A stretch of DNA of 45,813 nt, from contig MGMF01000013.1 of NCBI GenBank assembly GCA_001796335.1, positions 1 to 45,813 of the forward strand, written 5' to 3'. The stretch is from Chloroflexi bacterium GWB2_49_20. Its GTDB lineage: Bacteria; Chloroflexota; Anaerolineae; Anaerolineales; Villigracilaceae. The position numbers and the translations under genes were made by a program. The notes under the pieces were generated by a model that was not told the origin of the DNA, ran no database searches, and saw only the letters and a list, made by a program, of their open reading frames with translations. This document shows positions 13,419 to 24,595 of the stretch, in pieces (the stretch's first letter is position 1; every line of letters starts with the position of its first letter).

Positions 13419-15032
13419 ATGAATGTTGATATGATTTTATGGAACGGTCAAATTTTCACCGTTGACCCATCATTACCATGGGCTGAAGCAATTGCCTGTG
13501 GTAATGGACGGATCATGGCTGTTGGTAAATTTGAAGAGCTAAAAATGCTGGCGGGGCCGGATACAAAATTCATCAATGCCAACGGCCGTTTAGTTTTGCC
13601 TGGTTTAATCGATGCCCATATTCATTTCTTATGGTATGTCCTCCGACAACATAACAATCAGATAGATCTTTATGAAGTAAGTGATGTTGATGAAATTAGG
13701 CAGCGGATTGGACAGGCAGTTCAACATTATGGGAAACAGCAATGGTTGCACGGATGGGGCTGGGACGAAACGCATTGGAAGGAAAAACCCTCTTTAAATT
13801 TATTGGATGATATCTCACCTCATACACCCCTTATTCTTCACCGGGCAGATCTGCATACCGTTTGGGTCAACACCGCTGCATTGAAAATAGCTGGCATCAC
13901 TAACGATACCCCCGACCCGGATGGAGGCCGTTTTGGCCGCGATAAAATGGGCAGGCTGACCGGTGTGCTGCACGAATGGGCTGCCATTGAAAAGGTTGAG
14001 CAACATATTCCCGGATATGATGCTCAAACCCTTCAGGACTGGTTGAAGGATGCGATTGCCAATGCAAATAAACTAGGCTTAACCAGTATTCACGATATAC
14101 GCTTACAGCGGGAGGGACCTCAAAGTTTGCGCTTGTTCAATGATCTAAACCAACAAGGTGAGCTAAATCTACGCACCCATATGAACGTTGCTGCCGAATT
14201 CTTGAAAGAGGCCGTCGAGCTAGGGATTAGCCCGGGTTTCGGTGATGAGCGTTTATGGATCGGCCAGGTAAAAGTGTTTGCAGATGGTTCCATGGGAGGC
14301 AAAACTGCCCATATGTTGGAATCATTTGAGAATGAATCGGACAAATTTGGCATACCGGTCACATCGCCCGAATCCATGCTGGAATTGGGGATGATAGCCA
14401 GGCGGGCTGGTTTCTCTCTTTCAGTTCATGCAATCGGCGACCGCGCTGTAAGGACTGTGATTGATGTTCTGAATGAAATCCCTCCACATGAAGCCTCCAA
14501 TGTTGCAGCATTACCACACAGGATTGAGCATGTGCAATTGATCCACCCGGATGACCTGCCTCGTCTGAGCCAGAACAATATAATTGCATCCGTTCAGCCT
14601 GTGCATATCATGTCAGATTGGAAAACGGCCGATCGAGTCTGGGGATCCAGAGCGCGGCATGCATATGCATTCCGCTCCATGCTGAATCATCATACAGTCT
14701 TGGCTTTTGGATCAGATGCTCCCTTTGCGGCTTTAAACCCGATGCTGGGAATTTATGCTGCAGTAACCCGCTGCGATGATCGCAGGGAACCAGAAGGCGG
14801 GTGGGTTCCAGAAGAAAAATTGAGTGTGGAAGAAACGATTCATGGTTATACCATGGGTGCAGCCTGCGCGTCGGGAAAGCAATCCTTGCAGGGTTCGATC
14901 AGCCCGGGAAAATGGGCTGATTTTATAGTTCTGGATAGAAATATCTTTGAGATCGATCCAATGGAGATCCCGGAAACCAAAGTCCTGATGACGGTTTTAG
15001 ATGGCCAGGTGGTTTTCGAATCCGCAGTCTGA
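13419..15032 (+). CDS. YtcJ-like metal-dependent amidohydrolase (copy 1)
   Basis: Amidohydrolase_3 family, 537 residues, cytoplasmic. Metal ligands can be placed: H67-x-H69 in LPGLIDAHIHF, Lys285 in VKVFADGSMGG (carboxylated lysine position), His337 in SVHAIGDRA, His371 in PHRIEHVQ and Asp433 in FGSDAPFAALNP. The family includes N-substituted formamide deformylase and other hydrolases of exocyclic C-N bonds; the substrate here is unknown. AGGAG lies six bases before the ATG. It shares family and gene order with a second amidohydrolase further on, with a CE4 protein between them. Probably acts on the compound brought in by the upstream importer. Confidence 0.88.
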   Translation: MNVDMILWNGQIFTVDPSLPWAEAIACGNGRIMAVGKFEELKMLAGPDTKFINANGRLVLPGLIDAHIHFLWYVLRQHNNQIDLYEVSDVDEIRQRIGQAVQHYGKQQWLHGWGWDETHWKEKPSLNLLDDISPHTPLILHRADLHTVWVNTAALKIAGITNDTPDPDGGRFGRDKMGRLTGVLHEWAAIEKVEQHIPGYDAQTLQDWLKDAIANANKLGLTSIHDIRLQREGPQSLRLFNDLNQQGELNLRTHMNVAAEFLKEAVELGISPGFGDERLWIGQVKVFADGSMGGKTAHMLESFENESDKFGIPVTSPESMLELGMIARRAGFSLSVHAIGDRAVRTVIDVLNEIPPHEASNVAALPHRIEHVQLIHPDDLPRLSQNNIIASVQPVHIMSDWKTADRVWGSRARHAYAFRSMLNHHTVLAFGSDAPFAALNPMLGIYAAVTRCDDRREPEGGWVPEEKLSVEETIHGYTMGAACASGKQSLQGSISPGKWADFIVLDRNIFEIDPMEIPETKVLMTVLDGQVVFESAV

Positions 15033-16012: not shown

Positions 16013-17614
16013 ATGCCCGCTAAAATTCTCTATAATGGCAAGATCCACACACAAGACCCACATCTTCCCCATGCCACTGCGGTTGCGATACAAGGCAAGC
16101 GTATCCTGGCCGTTGGAAGTGACCAGGATGTGCGCGCCCTTGCAAGCTCGAAGACTGTTGAGATGAACCTGGGTGGTCGCCTGGTTTTGCCAGGATTGAC
16201 TGATTCCCACTTTCATTTCATAGACTGGGTGCATTCACTTCAGCAATTGGAACTATCCGGAGCCGCCTCACTGGAAGATGTCCGAGAACAAGTCGCCGGG
16301 GCGGTTAAAAAAATGCCTGCCGAAAAATGGATTCGTGGTTATTCGTGGAATGAGATCCGTTGGCCTGAACCACGCCTGATGACGCGAGCTGACCTAGATG
16401 ACCTTTCTCCTGCTCACCCTGTTATCCTTTGGAGGAGCGATAAACACCTGGCTGTAGTTAATTCCCTTGCATTAAAAATGGCAAATATCTCCTCTGAAAC
16501 GCCGGATCCTGAGCGGGGTGTTATTGATAGAGATGCTTATGGGCAACCGACAGGGATTCTTAGGGAACTGGCAATGAAACTGGTGCGGGATGTTATTCCT
16601 CCCTTCACTGAGGCAGAAAATCGGGCAGCTGTCAGGGATGCCCTGCCTCGTTTACACCGCCTGGGTTTGACCGGCGTGCATGATTTTCGCATGATGGCTG
16701 AAGAAACAGCCCCGGTTCTTCGTGCATATCATCAATTGCAGGAGGAAGGTGATTTTGCCATCCGGATGTGGATGCTCTTACCCGGAGAAAAACTGGAGCA
16801 AGCTATTTCCATGGGGTTACGCACAGGTTTTGGTAATGACAGCCTGCGCATTGGGCATGTGAAATATTTTTCGGATGGAGGTCAGGGGGCACGCACTGCC
16901 TGGATGCTGGAGGGATATGAAGATACCCACACCTTTGGCATGCCGATTACAACGATGGAAGAACTTGCTGCAGTCATCCAGCGTGCTCATGCTGCTGGAT
17001 TGGCAGTCGCTGTTCACGCCATAGGAGACCGGGCAAATCGTGAGTTGATAACTGTTTTTGAGAAAGTGAAAACACAGAAAAATGAATTTTCACCGATTGC
17101 CCCCCACCGCATTGAGCATGTCCAAAATATTCGCCCTGAGGATGTAAAACGCCTGGCAAAGCTTGGGGTGGTTGCTTCTGTCCAGCCTCTTCATGTACCT
17201 GATGATTATCCGATGGTAGATACATCTGTTGGGCCACGCGCCCGATTTGCCTATCCATTCCGGGATATGCTGGATGCCCGTGTACCCATCGCATGTGGTT
17301 CTGATTGTCCGGTGGCAAACCCGAATCCATTATGGGGCATCCACGCTGCGGTTACACGCCAGATGCGTAATGGCACTCCAGTAAGTGGATGGTATCCTGA
17401 TCAGTGTATCAGCGTTGCTGAAGTGGTCAGGGGTTATACAATGGGGGCTGCTGAAGCTACCGGGCGCCAGGCAGATCTTGGCAGCATCTCCGAGGCAAAA
17501 CTGGCAGACCTGGTGGTATTGGACCGTGACATTTATTCAATTGATCCTGCGGAAATTGCTGAAGTTCAGGTAGATATTACATTCTTAGATGGAGATATTA
17601 TCTACCAAAAATAG
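16013..17614 (+). CDS. YtcJ-like metal-dependent amidohydrolase (copy 2)
   Basis: Paralogue of the upstream amidohydrolase, 533 residues, same domain plan. Ligands visible: H66-x-H68 in LTDSHFHF, Lys in VKYFSDGGQGAR, His in AVHAIGDRA, His in PHRIEHVQ and Asp in CGSDCPVANPNP. The two copies diverge through much of their length, so this is an old duplication with possibly different substrates, for instance consecutive steps of one pathway. AAGGAAA lies about 14 bases before the ATG. Only 20 bases after the CE4 gene and 59 before acsA, consistent with one transcript. Confidence 0.88.
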   Translation: MPAKILYNGKIHTQDPHLPHATAVAIQGKRILAVGSDQDVRALASSKTVEMNLGGRLVLPGLTDSHFHFIDWVHSLQQLELSGAASLEDVREQVAGAVKKMPAEKWIRGYSWNEIRWPEPRLMTRADLDDLSPAHPVILWRSDKHLAVVNSLALKMANISSETPDPERGVIDRDAYGQPTGILRELAMKLVRDVIPPFTEAENRAAVRDALPRLHRLGLTGVHDFRMMAEETAPVLRAYHQLQEEGDFAIRMWMLLPGEKLEQAISMGLRTGFGNDSLRIGHVKYFSDGGQGARTAWMLEGYEDTHTFGMPITTMEELAAVIQRAHAAGLAVAVHAIGDRANRELITVFEKVKTQKNEFSPIAPHRIEHVQNIRPEDVKRLAKLGVVASVQPLHVPDDYPMVDTSVGPRARFAYPFRDMLDARVPIACGSDCPVANPNPLWGIHAAVTRQMRNGTPVSGWYPDQCISVAEVVRGYTMGAAEATGRQADLGSISEAKLADLVVLDRDIYSIDPAEIAEVQVDITFLDGDIIYQK

Positions 17615-20656: not shown

Positions 20657-21724
20657 TTATCTCTTCAACCCTTTCCAGATGGAATAACCTGTCATCCCCA
20701 AAAAGAGCAAAATCGCCACTTCATTGAATAAGCCACCCCACTGCCGCACGGATTGCAGAGATGCCAGATCCCCGATAATTCTAACCAGTAGTGACACATG
20801 TAACAGAATGAGATGAATGTAAAATGCTGGTTGAAAGTTGATTTGAACTTGAAAGATGGCGGGGAAAATAATGGGAGCGTGACCGAAGATCATCGACATA
20901 ACGAACCCAACGAATATGATATGCAGCACAGCGTCATAAAATGGTCCGGCATACTGTGCGCCAATTGCAAGCATCAAGCCACCCCCAACGATTAACCACA
21001 AGAAACCTGCAAACAGGCTGTGAGCTATATAACGGGTCAGGGGAGCTGGATGGCGCAGGTTACGCCGTGCAATGTCGTTTGCGAGGAACCACGATCCAAG
21101 CCCCAAAAGTCCTGCTCCACTCAAGCGGGTACCAATGTCCAGGTTTAATATGGCAGCACTCTCCCCGATCAGGATGAGTGCAACAAAAAGCCCAAATATG
21201 CCCACCTGCATGGTTGAAGGTCGCAAGACACGGCTGAGCTCGAGCCGCTCCCCGGCAATGGTCAACACGAGGAATCCCATCCAGAAGAAAACCATTTGAA
21301 AGATCGGCATCCCCATCATCCACAGGATGTTGCCCACGATCCAGGAGAATCCACCTGCTGCCATAACCAGAGTGTGGGTTTTCGGTTCACGGATTATCAT
21401 GAACAACAGGATGGCAAATGTAACCAGGCTGCCCAACGTAAAAAGAATCGCTCCCAGAAAACCGGGCCTTGCCAGTAAAAACACCCAGCCAGTGGCTGTC
21501 AGGGCAGGCGCAGTAAACATCCATTTTTTGCGGATGGCTACTGCCCGTTCCAGCGGGATCAGTGTGCCCAGGAAGCCACATACCATCAATGGACCATGTG
21601 CATTGGCCAGGTTTGGATAGGGTGGCAACGACCAACCCATACGCAGCAAGCCCGCCCACATAGCAGCCAACAACGCCAAAAGAGAAAAAACCACAAAAGG
21701 AAAATAACGCTTCTGAATTTTCAT
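20657..21724 (-). CDS. NnrS-like multi-pass membrane protein
   Basis: 355 residues with about ten to twelve hydrophobic segments. Family hallmarks of NnrS: the HGPLMVCGFLGTLIPLERAVA block near residue 43 and HIIFVGFVMSMIFGHAPIIFPAI in the C-terminal half, with conserved histidines that could bind haem or copper. NnrS proteins are membrane metalloproteins associated with nitric oxide tolerance in denitrifiers (established knowledge). It is divergent from a Crp/Fnr regulator, beyond which lies a copper nitrite reductase; this context supports a role against NO. Assignment rests on motif recognition. Confidence 0.72.
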   Translation of the reverse strand: MKIQKRYFPFVVFSLLALLAAMWAGLLRMGWSLPPYPNLANAHGPLMVCGFLGTLIPLERAVAIRKKWMFTAPALTATGWVFLLARPGFLGAILFTLGSLVTFAILLFMIIREPKTHTLVMAAGGFSWIVGNILWMMGMPIFQMVFFWMGFLVLTIAGERLELSRVLRPSTMQVGIFGLFVALILIGESAAILNLDIGTRLSGAGLLGLGSWFLANDIARRNLRHPAPLTRYIAHSLFAGFLWLIVGGGLMLAIGAQYAGPFYDAVLHIIFVGFVMSMIFGHAPIIFPAIFQVQINFQPAFYIHLILLHVSLLVRIIGDLASLQSVRQWGGLFNEVAILLFLGMTGYSIWKGLKR

Positions 21725-21902: not shown

Positions 21903-22607
21903 ATGGATGGAAAAATGCAGGAACTTATCCGCCAATCCAGCTTATTCAAAGATGTTGGTTCAGACGTCTTTGCCCAAGTGTTGGAGACATGTATACCACG
22001 TTCCGTGGAAGAGGATGGCTTTTTCTTTATGCAGGGAGACGCCGCCAGCCATGCTTTTGTATTGCTGGAGGGGCGCGTAAAAATGCTCCAGATCACACCC
22101 AACGGGCAGCAAATCACCCTGCGCATTCTGACGCCCGGGCAGACTTATGGCGGCATTGCAATACTCAATCCCCTGGAAGGCTATCCGGCCACCGCGCAGG
22201 CCATGGAAAACAGCACAGCCCTGGCCTGGGATACAGCCCATTTGCGTAAATTGGCAGAAATGGAACCTTCCATTTCACTTAATGCCATGCAATTAATGCA
22301 CGCCTACATCACCGAATTACAAGAACGCCAAAAAGCACTGGTTACAGATCGGGTGGAGCAACGCATTGCCCGCATCCTGATGAAGCTAGCATCTCAATAT
22401 GGCAAAAAGGTGGAAGAGGGTGTGTTGATCAATTTTCCACTAACCCGGAAGGATATTGCAGAAATGAGCGGAACGACGCTCTTTACGGTCAGCCGTACAT
22501 TAAAAGAGTGGGAAAGGCAGGGGATGGTAAAAATTGGGAGGGAAAAGGTGTGTATTTGCAAACCGCATGGATTGGTAAGCCTGGCGGACGATCTCGTTCG
22601 AAGATAA
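21903..22607 (+). CDS. Crp/Fnr-family transcriptional regulator
   Basis: 234 residues: N-terminal cyclic-nucleotide-binding-like beta barrel (about 10-125, with LLEGRVKMLQITPNGQQITLRILTPGQTYG), a long dimerisation helix, and a C-terminal winged helix with recognition segment LTRKDIAEMSGTTLFTVSRTLKEWE. It has no N-terminal cysteine cluster of the FNR kind (only Cys30 in that half), so it is not an oxygen-sensing Fe-S FNR; a DNR/NnrR-like NO- or redox-responsive role fits the neighbours. Ends in a strong terminator. Likely targets are the divergent NnrS-like gene and nirK. Confidence 0.9.
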   Translation: MDGKMQELIRQSSLFKDVGSDVFAQVLETCIPRSVEEDGFFFMQGDAASHAFVLLEGRVKMLQITPNGQQITLRILTPGQTYGGIAILNPLEGYPATAQAMENSTALAWDTAHLRKLAEMEPSISLNAMQLMHAYITELQERQKALVTDRVEQRIARILMKLASQYGKKVEEGVLINFPLTRKDIAEMSGTTLFTVSRTLKEWERQGMVKIGREKVCICKPHGLVSLADDLVRR

Positions 22608-22623
22608 CCATTCGCCCGTTACA

Positions 22624-22660
22624 AGCCCGGGTAGATCATGCTACGCCGGGCTGTTTTTTT
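22624..22660 (+). terminator. Rho-independent terminator after crp/fnr
   Basis: AGCCCGG-GTAG pairs with CTAC-(G bulge)-CCGGGCT around ATCATG, followed by GTTTTTTT. Separates the regulator from nirK, which therefore needs its own promoter. Confidence 0.85.
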
Positions 22661-22768
22661 AACTTGCGCCAGCGCAAAGACAAAATCCTACCTTTTAAGA
22701 TAAGCTATATCCAATAGGTATGTGTCCCTTCTTTCCAGTATATCTAATAATCCTTTCAGGAGCAGATC

Positions 22769-24595
22769 ATGAGAATTTTCAAATCATTAATCAGCGCGTT
22801 GGTGCTCGGAGTCTTACTGGTTTCCTGCGCCCCTGTTGATGCGCCAGTCGTCAATACAGAATATATACTCACCACCGATATGCGGGATGGCAAGTTCGTG
22901 TTTGTCGGTGTCAATGAAGACATCAATGGAACAGTCAACCCGTCCCTGCATGCAAAACCGGGAGAAAAGATCAGTGTCATGCTTATCAATGGTGGCTATG
23001 GGGAGCATGACATTGTTTTTCCAGAACTCAACATACATTCTGATGTGATCCACCAGAAAGGGGAAACAACCAAGATCACATTCTCTGTGCCGGAACAAGA
23101 TGTGGTGTTGACATACCAAGATTCTTCCCATGCCAAACTGGGTATGAGTGGTGTTTTGCTGGTTGGTGCGGTGATCGCCTCACAGCCTGAGAGCTCCGCA
23201 AGCACTCAGGATGCGATGGGCATGGACACGCAAGCCGCTGGAAAAACGGTGGAATATACGCTTGAGTCAGCCCTGGCAGATGGCAAAATGATCTATATCG
23301 GAAAAGGGAGTGACCTGGATGGAAAAACCAACCCGGATCTAACCGCAAATCCCGGCGATCTGGTGAGAGTGACCCTTTTCAGCGGCGAAGGCGCGACCCA
23401 TAACATTTTCTTTGATGGATTTAATGCAAAATCTGAGGATGTTGCCGGTAAAGGGAACAGCGTGGTGGTTGAATTCACCCCGGATAAGGAAGGTACGTTT
23501 GCTTATTATTGCACTATTCTGGGGCACCGCCAGGCAGGCATGCAGGGCAAGTTCATCGTTGGCTCGGGAACTTCATCAGAGACCGCTGGCACTGGCACAA
23601 ATAACACCGGTACCGGGATGCCTGCGGATACTTCCCTGGAAGCAGGACCGGCAGATCCCAACGCCGTGGACATTGTTCGTGACCCAACAGACATTCCCAC
23701 CCCGATTGGGAAGCGGGGACCTGAAGCCGTACGCGTTGATCTGGAAACCGTTGAAGTAACCGGTCAATTGGCGGATGGCATTACCTTCAAATATTGGACC
23801 TTTAACGGGAAAGTTCCCGGCCCTTTCATCCGTGTACGCGTGGGTGACACAGTGGAGGTGCATCTCAAAAATTTACCGGATAGCAGCATGGCACACTCGG
23901 TGGACTTTCATGCTGTTACAGGACCCGGGGGCGGCGCTGTGGCCACTCAGACTCAGCCCGGCGGAGAAACCATGTTTACTTTCAAGGCGCTCAACCCCGG
24001 CCTGTTTGTCTATCACTGTGCCACACCGATGGTCGCACAGCATATTTCCAACGGCATGTATGGCCTGATCCTGGTGGAACCCGCCGGCGGTTTGCCTGCG
24101 GTGGATCGTGAATTCTATGTCATGCAGGGTGAAATCTATACAGCCCAGCCCTTCGACACAACCGGTGCAGTCACCGCTGACGCTGTCAAATTATTGAACG
24201 AAAACCCCGAGTATTTCGTGTTCAACGGCTCAGCCCTGGCCCTGGCAAGCGATACGCATGCATTGAGAGCCAACGTCGGCGAAACGGTACGCATTTTCTT
24301 TGGGGTGGGAGGCCCGAACTTCATATCCTCCTTCCATGTGATCGGCGAAATTTTCGACCGCGTTTATGATCAAGCCTCATTGACTGCTCCTCCGCTGACC
24401 GATGTACAGACCACGCTTGTGCCCCCGGGCGGCGCAACAATGGTGGAGTTCAAGCTGGAAGTGCCCGGGCGCTATATTCTTGTGGACCATGCCCTGGCAA
24501 GGATGGAACGCGGCCTGGCTGGATACCTGTACGTGGAAGGTGATCCAAACCCGGATATATTCAATGGAACCGTGACCCCGGGCAGCGGTCATTAA
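22769..24595 (+). CDS. nirK: Copper nitrite reductase with two extra N-terminal cupredoxin domains
   Basis: Reduces nitrite to nitric oxide outside the cytoplasmic membrane. 608 residues against about 340-380 for ordinary NirK. A lipoprotein signal ends at Cys20 (LVSC). Cupredoxin A (about 30-132) has His80, His121 and Met126, but Gln117 replaces the copper cysteine. Cupredoxin B (about 160-265) has the full type 1 set His211, Cys248, His253, Met258. A Gly/Thr-rich linker leads to the NirK core (320-590): type 1 ligands His376, Cys417, His425, Met430; type 2 ligands His381, His416, His574; catalytic Asp379 and His523. All active-site residues are present. A and B share a sequence pattern and look like an internal duplication. 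AGGAG precedes the ATG. Domain B probably feeds electrons to the core. Confidence 0.9.
   Translation: MRIFKSLISALVLGVLLVSCAPVDAPVVNTEYILTTDMRDGKFVFVGVNEDINGTVNPSLHAKPGEKISVMLINGGYGEHDIVFPELNIHSDVIHQKGETTKITFSVPEQDVVLTYQDSSHAKLGMSGVLLVGAVIASQPESSASTQDAMGMDTQAAGKTVEYTLESALADGKMIYIGKGSDLDGKTNPDLTANPGDLVRVTLFSGEGATHNIFFDGFNAKSEDVAGKGNSVVVEFTPDKEGTFAYYCTILGHRQAGMQGKFIVGSGTSSETAGTGTNNTGTGMPADTSLEAGPADPNAVDIVRDPTDIPTPIGKRGPEAVRVDLETVEVTGQLADGITFKYWTFNGKVPGPFIRVRVGDTVEVHLKNLPDSSMAHSVDFHAVTGPGGGAVATQTQPGGETMFTFKALNPGLFVYHCATPMVAQHISNGMYGLILVEPAGGLPAVDREFYVMQGEIYTAQPFDTTGAVTADAVKLLNENPEYFVFNGSALALASDTHALRANVGETVRIFFGVGGPNFISSFHVIGEIFDRVYDQASLTAPPLTDVQTTLVPPGGATMVEFKLEVPGRYILVDHALARMERGLAGYLYVEGDPNPDIFNGTVTPGSGH

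Follow-up and report, generated by a model that had tools for sequence, protein, structure and literature searches.

The nirK gene of Chloroflexi bacterium GWB2_49_20 encodes a predicted lipoprotein in which two tandem cupredoxin domains precede the copper nitrite reductase core, and the first of these (domain A) carries an aspartate at the position of the type 1 copper cysteine. By sequence comparison, domain A is a lineage-specific module that stands first on both the NirK and the NirS nitrite reductases of the order Anaerolineales. The gene lies in the window, i.e., the whole 45,813-nucleotide stretch that was analyzed (contig MGMF01000013.1).

The open reading frame (positions 22769 to 24595, forward strand, 608 amino acids) follows a Shine-Dalgarno-like AGGAG, read directly at 22758 to 22762 on the same strand, 6 bases 5' of the ATG. 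It begins with a signal peptide and a lipobox (LVSC) at 22769 to 22828 that predicts a lipidated Cys20. Domain A (residues about 26 to 135; 22844 to 23173), domain B (residues about 158 to 267; 23240 to 23569), a Gly/Ser/Thr-rich linker, and the NirK catalytic core (residues 301 to 604; 23669 to 24580) follow, all on the forward strand. The core scored 340.3 bits against TIGR02376, above the curated cutoff of 296.3 bits, which places it in NirK, and its best PDB matches are 6tfd and 2dv6. It retains His376, Cys417, His425, and Met430 as the type 1 set, His381, His416, and His574 as the type 2 set, and the catalytic Asp379 and His523, roles that we take to follow from the CuNIR numbering. These nine residues are conserved in all 39 NirK cores that carry domain A. 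Domain B matched Pfam Copper-bind with 48.1 bits and holds a full type 1 set (His211, Cys248, His253, and Met258), exactly as a preliminary description of the gene had listed it. That description had also reported two cupredoxins ahead of the core, a core with every metal and catalytic residue, and a lipoprotein; the first two were recovered here and the third is predicted, with a lipobox ahead of domain A in 54 of the 55 A proteins (the exception, L108, is cut by the contig end). A model of the full-length protein was weak (pLDDT 63, pTM 0.42), and the domains could not be placed relative to one another from it.

Domain B and the core align with the nitrite reductase of Hyphomicrobium denitrificans (HdNIR; PDB 2dv6, 6tfd, and 6tfo), with 554 bits in two stretches for 6tfd and 545 bits for 2dv6, and domain B pairs with the HdNIR N-terminal cupredoxin. 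As in the HdNIR type, a cupredoxin with the type 1 set stands beside the core. HdNIR has a single N-terminal cupredoxin with type 1 copper, whereas the window protein adds a preceding one with Asp and is a predicted lipoprotein. The alignments thus describe a putatively lipid-anchored form of the Hyphomicrobium three-domain NirK type (B plus core) with domain A as an extra N-terminal domain.

Domain A is 32% identical to domain B (BLASTP E value, 9e-21). The preliminary description had called it a cupredoxin, and this was upheld by profiles (A1 and A2) and structure comparison, although its Pfam scores in the window are below gathering (Cupredoxin_1, 15.0 against 27 bits; Copper-bind, 14.4 against 21.2 bits). 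The A profile found the N-terminal domain of HdNIR with 79 bits. An AF2 model of domain A from 15 sequences reached pLDDT 92 and pTM 0.84 (66.5 to 73.8 in the other four models), and VIA-align superposed it on the HdNIR N-terminal cupredoxin (2dv6, residues 24 to 132) with Z 17.8 (rmsd 1.8, 107 residues); nitrosocyanin, at Z 12.5, ranked next among different proteins. Domain A is therefore a predicted cupredoxin fold that has lost its type 1 Cys.

The residue that took the place of the Cys had been named as Gln117. This was ruled out by the BLASTP alignment of A with B, the A profile on HdNIR, and a MAFFT alignment of 128 domains: Gln117 pairs with Tyr247 of domain B, the residue before the Cys, and Asp118 (23120 to 23122, forward strand) occupies the Cys position itself. 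The pairing needs no gap in L008, where the A loop FAYMDSVPGHAEAGM has the same length as the B loop of the same protein, FAYYCSIPGHRQAGM; L008 and L009 share a longer A loop that pairs with B loops without a gap. In the Cys column, Asp is found in 55 of 55 distinct A domains from 52 genomes (codons GAC in 41 and GAT in 14). Of the 73 distinct B domains compared, 72 have Cys there and one (L141) has Gly. The residue preceding the Asp column varies among A domains (Tyr, His, Met, Phe, Gln, Arg, Glu, Ile, or Trp). A share of at least 93% for one residue in A, with less than 35% of it in B, is reached at three columns only, namely Thr35, an inserted Pro108, and Asp118.

Domain A was sought by profile in 152 genomes of the family and in drawn samples of 400 genomes of the order, 396 of the class, and 400 of the phylum, with overlap among the sets. 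The 52 genomes with A-classed domains comprise 48 of the family and two each from two other families of the order; among the fetched matches of the class and phylum searches, none from outside the order was classed as A. A separate peptide-pattern scan of the genome collection returned 14 loci, with titles naming Anaerolineae/Anaerolineales, Anaerolinea, or Chloroflexi. The 55 distinct A domains divide into 21 A-C1-NirK, 18 A-B-NirK, 14 A-C1-NirS, and 2 A-C1 proteins (L095 and L096), C1 being a cytochrome domain. The last pair does not make a fourth architecture, since L095 runs into a contig end and the reading frame of L096 overlaps a separate NirS open reading frame that comes after it, i.e., a split or shifted gene. 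Domain A is the first domain, behind the lipid anchor, of A-B-NirK, A-cytochrome-NirK, and A-cytochrome-NirS alike, and five genomes encode two A proteins of different kinds. One example of each core was checked against curated models, giving 432.7 bits for Cytochrom_D1 in L035 and 323 bits for TIGR02376 in L011. The CxxCH heme motif is kept in 37 of 37 C1 domains, and the Cys in the B domains of all 18 A-B-NirK proteins, L141 being the only B row without it. The window protein has no C1 match; domain B occupies that place. B-NirK proteins without A are also present in the family and order, and seven weaker matches of the order search, fetched after the counts and outside the 73 B rows, were all B-NirK with Cys (7/7). 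NirK and NirS are two unrelated NO-forming nitrite reductases, and an invariant Asp in a domain that both carry suggests a functional part in common use and not a copy in decay. The suggestion of a degenerate copy private to this gene fails on the same A-cytochrome-NirK and A-cytochrome-NirS proteins. An assembly artifact was rejected as well, given the 18 distinct A-B-NirK and 21 distinct A-C1-NirK sequences.

Related fusions have been described. Schwartz et al. 2022 reported cupredoxin-C1-NirK and cupredoxin-C1-C2-NirS open reading frames in Chloroflexi and considered the former a possible assembly artifact (PMC8756737); the 21 distinct A-C1-NirK sequences found here disfavor that doubt. From its position and taxon, the cupredoxin of those fusions is most likely domain A. 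The sections of that paper that were consulted mention neither A-B-NirK nor the Cys-to-Asp change. The four-domain heme-CuNIR of Bradyrhizobium sp. ORS 375 is described with a cytochrome c and a cupredoxin N-terminal to the NirK core (PMC8301774 and PMC7775769), the same domain kinds as the A-C1-NirK relatives, a likeness of description and not of sequence. It has a cytochrome where the window protein has a second cupredoxin, and the latter, with no C1 domain, falls outside that class.

A second cupredoxin-cupredoxin-NirK was observed in L141 (G781:C32), a single record from another family of the class, truncated on the contig side. The first of its two cupredoxins has Gly for the Cys and Tyr for the second His. 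As this domain groups with the B domains of its own lineage, the arrangement seems to have arisen twice. Tandem cupredoxin-NirK was also considered in plasmid records. Two Deinococcus nirK genes matched by A plus B proved to be ordinary B-NirK with Cys, and the third match (L163, a Haloferax larsenii plasmid) encodes, directly after nirK, a separate two-domain halocyanin-type protein with both Cys present. For L011 (A-C1-NirK), none of 400 plasmid records gave a match covering 80% of the protein.

We favor, at somewhat better than even confidence, a role of domain A as a membrane-side docking or assembly module and not as a type 1 electron carrier. The preliminary description had already suggested docking or trimer contacts, and this is still the likeliest reading. 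The second domain, which is redox competent (B in the window protein and the cytochrome c domain in its relatives), would pass electrons to the core. Domain A would lie next to the membrane and present either enzyme (NirK or NirS) to one common partner or oligomer, and in it Asp118 would replace the thiolate and hold the emptied site together. Wherever both ends of an A protein are known, a lipid anchor is followed by A, then by a redox-competent carrier (B or C1), and last by the nitrite reductase. As the anchor and A are constant and the carrier and reductase are exchanged, a common membrane-side task, such as docking to the same donor or holding an oligomer, would best explain the arrangement. 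Against this reading, related B-NirK genes do without domain A, which is thus not needed for the reaction as such. In HdNIR, the N-terminal cupredoxins form a head-to-head hexamer contact between trimers, about 24 Å from the core copper, and pulse radiolysis suggests that electrons arrive first at the N-terminal copper and move on from there (PMC7201279), so an N-terminal cupredoxin need not be merely structural. A NirK with a mutated N-terminal type 1 copper is reported to be more active than the wild type, and the N-terminal cupredoxin is described in a survey of NirK sequences as having no known function (PMC4770552). Also against the docking or assembly reading, 39 of the 55 A domains have all four ligand positions filled, and A is most loosely constrained in the NirS proteins (dN/dS, 0.318).

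Those ligand positions bear on an unlikely alternative, that domain A is a natural Cys-to-Asp copper center (His80, Asp118, His121, and Met126) that passes donor electrons to the B or cytochrome domain. His80 (23006 to 23008) at the first His position is matched by His in 52 of 55 A domains, His121 (23129 to 23131) at the second in 39, and Met126 (23144 to 23146) at the axial position by Met in 54 and Leu in one (all on the forward strand), and every one of the 39 domains with the second His keeps all the other ligands beside the invariant Asp. The D-x2-H-x4-M spacing of the window domain is that of a plastocyanin-type ligand loop, which also favors a metal site. Against it, the second His is missing in 16 of 55 A domains, across all architectures and with 8 changes on the A tree, and L095, L097, and L098 have lost both His residues and still keep the Asp. 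These patterns indicate that metal binding is not the sole reason for the Asp. Loss of the first His or the Met was seen in 0 of 39 domains with the second His and in 4 of 16 without it (Fisher P = 0.005, uncorrected for kinship), an association that is weak because three of the four are close relatives, which makes about two events; it may point to a functional metal site in most A domains. We read the Asp as probably needed in all A domains to keep the emptied site folded, and most of them, including that of the window, may bind metal.

Copper sites with Asp are known among cupredoxin folds, both engineered and natural. Low-reorganization type zero azurin variants also have their axial Met altered to a hydrophobic residue, and domain A, which has Asp at the type 1 Cys position in place of the Cys ligand, keeps Met in 54 of 55 sequences and as Met126 in the window. 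Azurin C112D variants carry Asp at the same position as domain A, by engineering and not naturally as in A, and they bind copper; their reorganization energy lies well above that of the wild type (PMC8915257), which, with the axial Met retained here, counts against this alternative. FtrB (Cup-II) offers a natural cupredoxin fold with an Asp-x2-His pair (D118 and H121), as in D118-S-S-H121 of the window domain, a likeness of motif only. It binds Cu(II) with micromolar affinity, and its D118A mutant does not bind (PMC11966278). The same source makes the case mixed, as the H121A mutant binds copper like the wild type, the crystal contains no visible copper, one FtrB cluster frequently has Gly for the Asp, and no copper binding was found for an FtrB of cluster II; FtrB also belongs to iron uptake and is described as lacking a conserved His/His/Cys set (PMC11966278). 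It was not among the 50 structures listed as matches of the A model. We consider it distinctly unlikely that domain A would be a natural Cys-to-Asp electron transfer center with these four ligands, the counterpart of the engineered C112D and type zero azurins, through which electrons would enter both of these unrelated nitrite reductases.

Under another, improbable reading, domain A would be a duplicate of B made inside the A-B-NirK gene, its Cys lost by drift, and now a dispensable remnant. The preliminary description had likewise suggested an internal duplication, and the trees leave this part of it neither shown nor rejected. Because the A profile was built from only 11 sequences, all with Asp, and A and B were assigned by profile score, the A/B split was checked again by masking the Cys column and building a tree (124 rows, excluding the long-branch B rows L002, L121, L123, and L144, which the midpoint-rooted tree includes), and the same two sides were obtained. 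All 55 A rows lie on one side of a branch with a bootstrap value of 100 and SH-aLRT of 96, separate from the B domains encoded with them. A topology forcing A together with the B domains of the same genes was unrejected (AU P = 0.446); with about 110 columns, deep forks in such trees are poorly resolved. The 32% identity of A and B is also in keeping with a duplication, as are L008 and L009, the most B-like A loops, which occur in A-B-NirK genes and branch first within A on the midpoint-rooted tree, and L141 illustrates that a cupredoxin can be duplicated in tandem and the outer copy lose its Cys. The duplication half of this reading may be true.

Its remnant half is not supported. The Asp is invariant and not drifting, and NirS genes acquired domain A and have retained it. 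The A tree requires five changes of the NirK/NirS label, two of them forced by well-supported branches (taking both A-C1 rows as NirS), and four of the carrier label; the former changes imply that A was exchanged between the enzymes. The B domains of the A-B-NirK genes form one group (100/94), so this fusion probably had a single origin. Median dN/dS values within A-B-NirK were 0.224 for A (39 of 171 pairs usable), 0.209 for B (43 of 171), and 0.108 for NirK (72 of 171), by simple pair counting over pairs with dS of 0.1 to 1.5 that share sequences. The median for A was 0.131 in A-C1-NirK (96 of 210 pairs) and 0.318, the loosest, in A-C1-NirS (29 of 91). Domain A is under purifying selection, which in A-B-NirK is about as strong as that on B. 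Decay of A, as implied when the domain was first called degenerate, is ruled out by these values together with the Asp in 55 of 55 domains.

The haem d1 core of NirS requires no copper. A role of domain A as a store or chaperone that loads the copper sites of NirK is highly improbable, as the same domain sits on NirS proteins with a haem d1 core (the Cytochrom_D1 match of L035) and 16 of 55 A domains lack a His ligand, even though most keep their metal-ligand side chains.

Directly upstream of nirK lies a gene for a Crp/Fnr-family regulator (21903 to 22607, forward strand; Pfam cNMP_binding and HTH_Crp_2). Relatives of it were found by tblastn upstream in 11 of the 14 named loci (45 to 74% identity), three of which are A-cytochrome-NirS loci, and not in L038, L042, or L043. 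The gap between the two genes contains, at 22624 to 22661, a GC-rich inverted repeat followed by a T run, noted by eye and not listed by a scan limited to short loops, which suggests separate transcripts for the regulator and nirK. Further upstream, 20657 to 21724 on the reverse strand encodes a 355-amino-acid hydrophobic, probably membrane, protein with no Pfam or NCBIfam match; its relatives occur in L032 with A-B-NirK (77%) and in L041 with A-C1-NirS (64%). Elsewhere in the window, two Amidohydro_3 proteins (13419 to 15032 and 16013 to 17614) flank a polysaccharide deacetylase gene. The genome of the organism (99.43% complete) gave one Cytochrom_D1 match, below the cutoff (22.1 against 25.5 bits), and no COX1-family match, which 8 of 14 control genomes have. 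With the one model used for NosZ, neither this genome nor any of the 14 control genomes passed the cutoff. Three open reading frames of the genome (G000:C21:358754-360797 and 337290-337553) have a cupredoxin resembling the C-terminal part of NosZ.

The literature surveyed (titles, beginnings of abstracts, and passages, outside subscription papers) names no cupredoxin-cupredoxin-NirK, and its titles, abstract beginnings, and passages name no natural Cys-to-Asp type 1 site apart from FtrB. As far as that survey shows, the tandem A-B-NirK, the invariant Cys-to-Asp change, the evidence for domain A as one module of NirK and NirS, and the reality of A-C1-NirK in Chloroflexota are new. NirK Clade 1e, which contains Hyphomicrobium and many Chloroflexi sequences, is reported to be abundant in wastewater plants (PMC10999283), and from their likeness to HdNIR the present genes would belong to this clade. 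With the invariant Cys-to-Asp change, it could be tested cleanly whether electron transfer in nature uses a counterpart of the engineered Asp copper site. The same first domain is carried by two unrelated reductases, and its binding target would reveal how electrons are delivered at the membrane to either of them.
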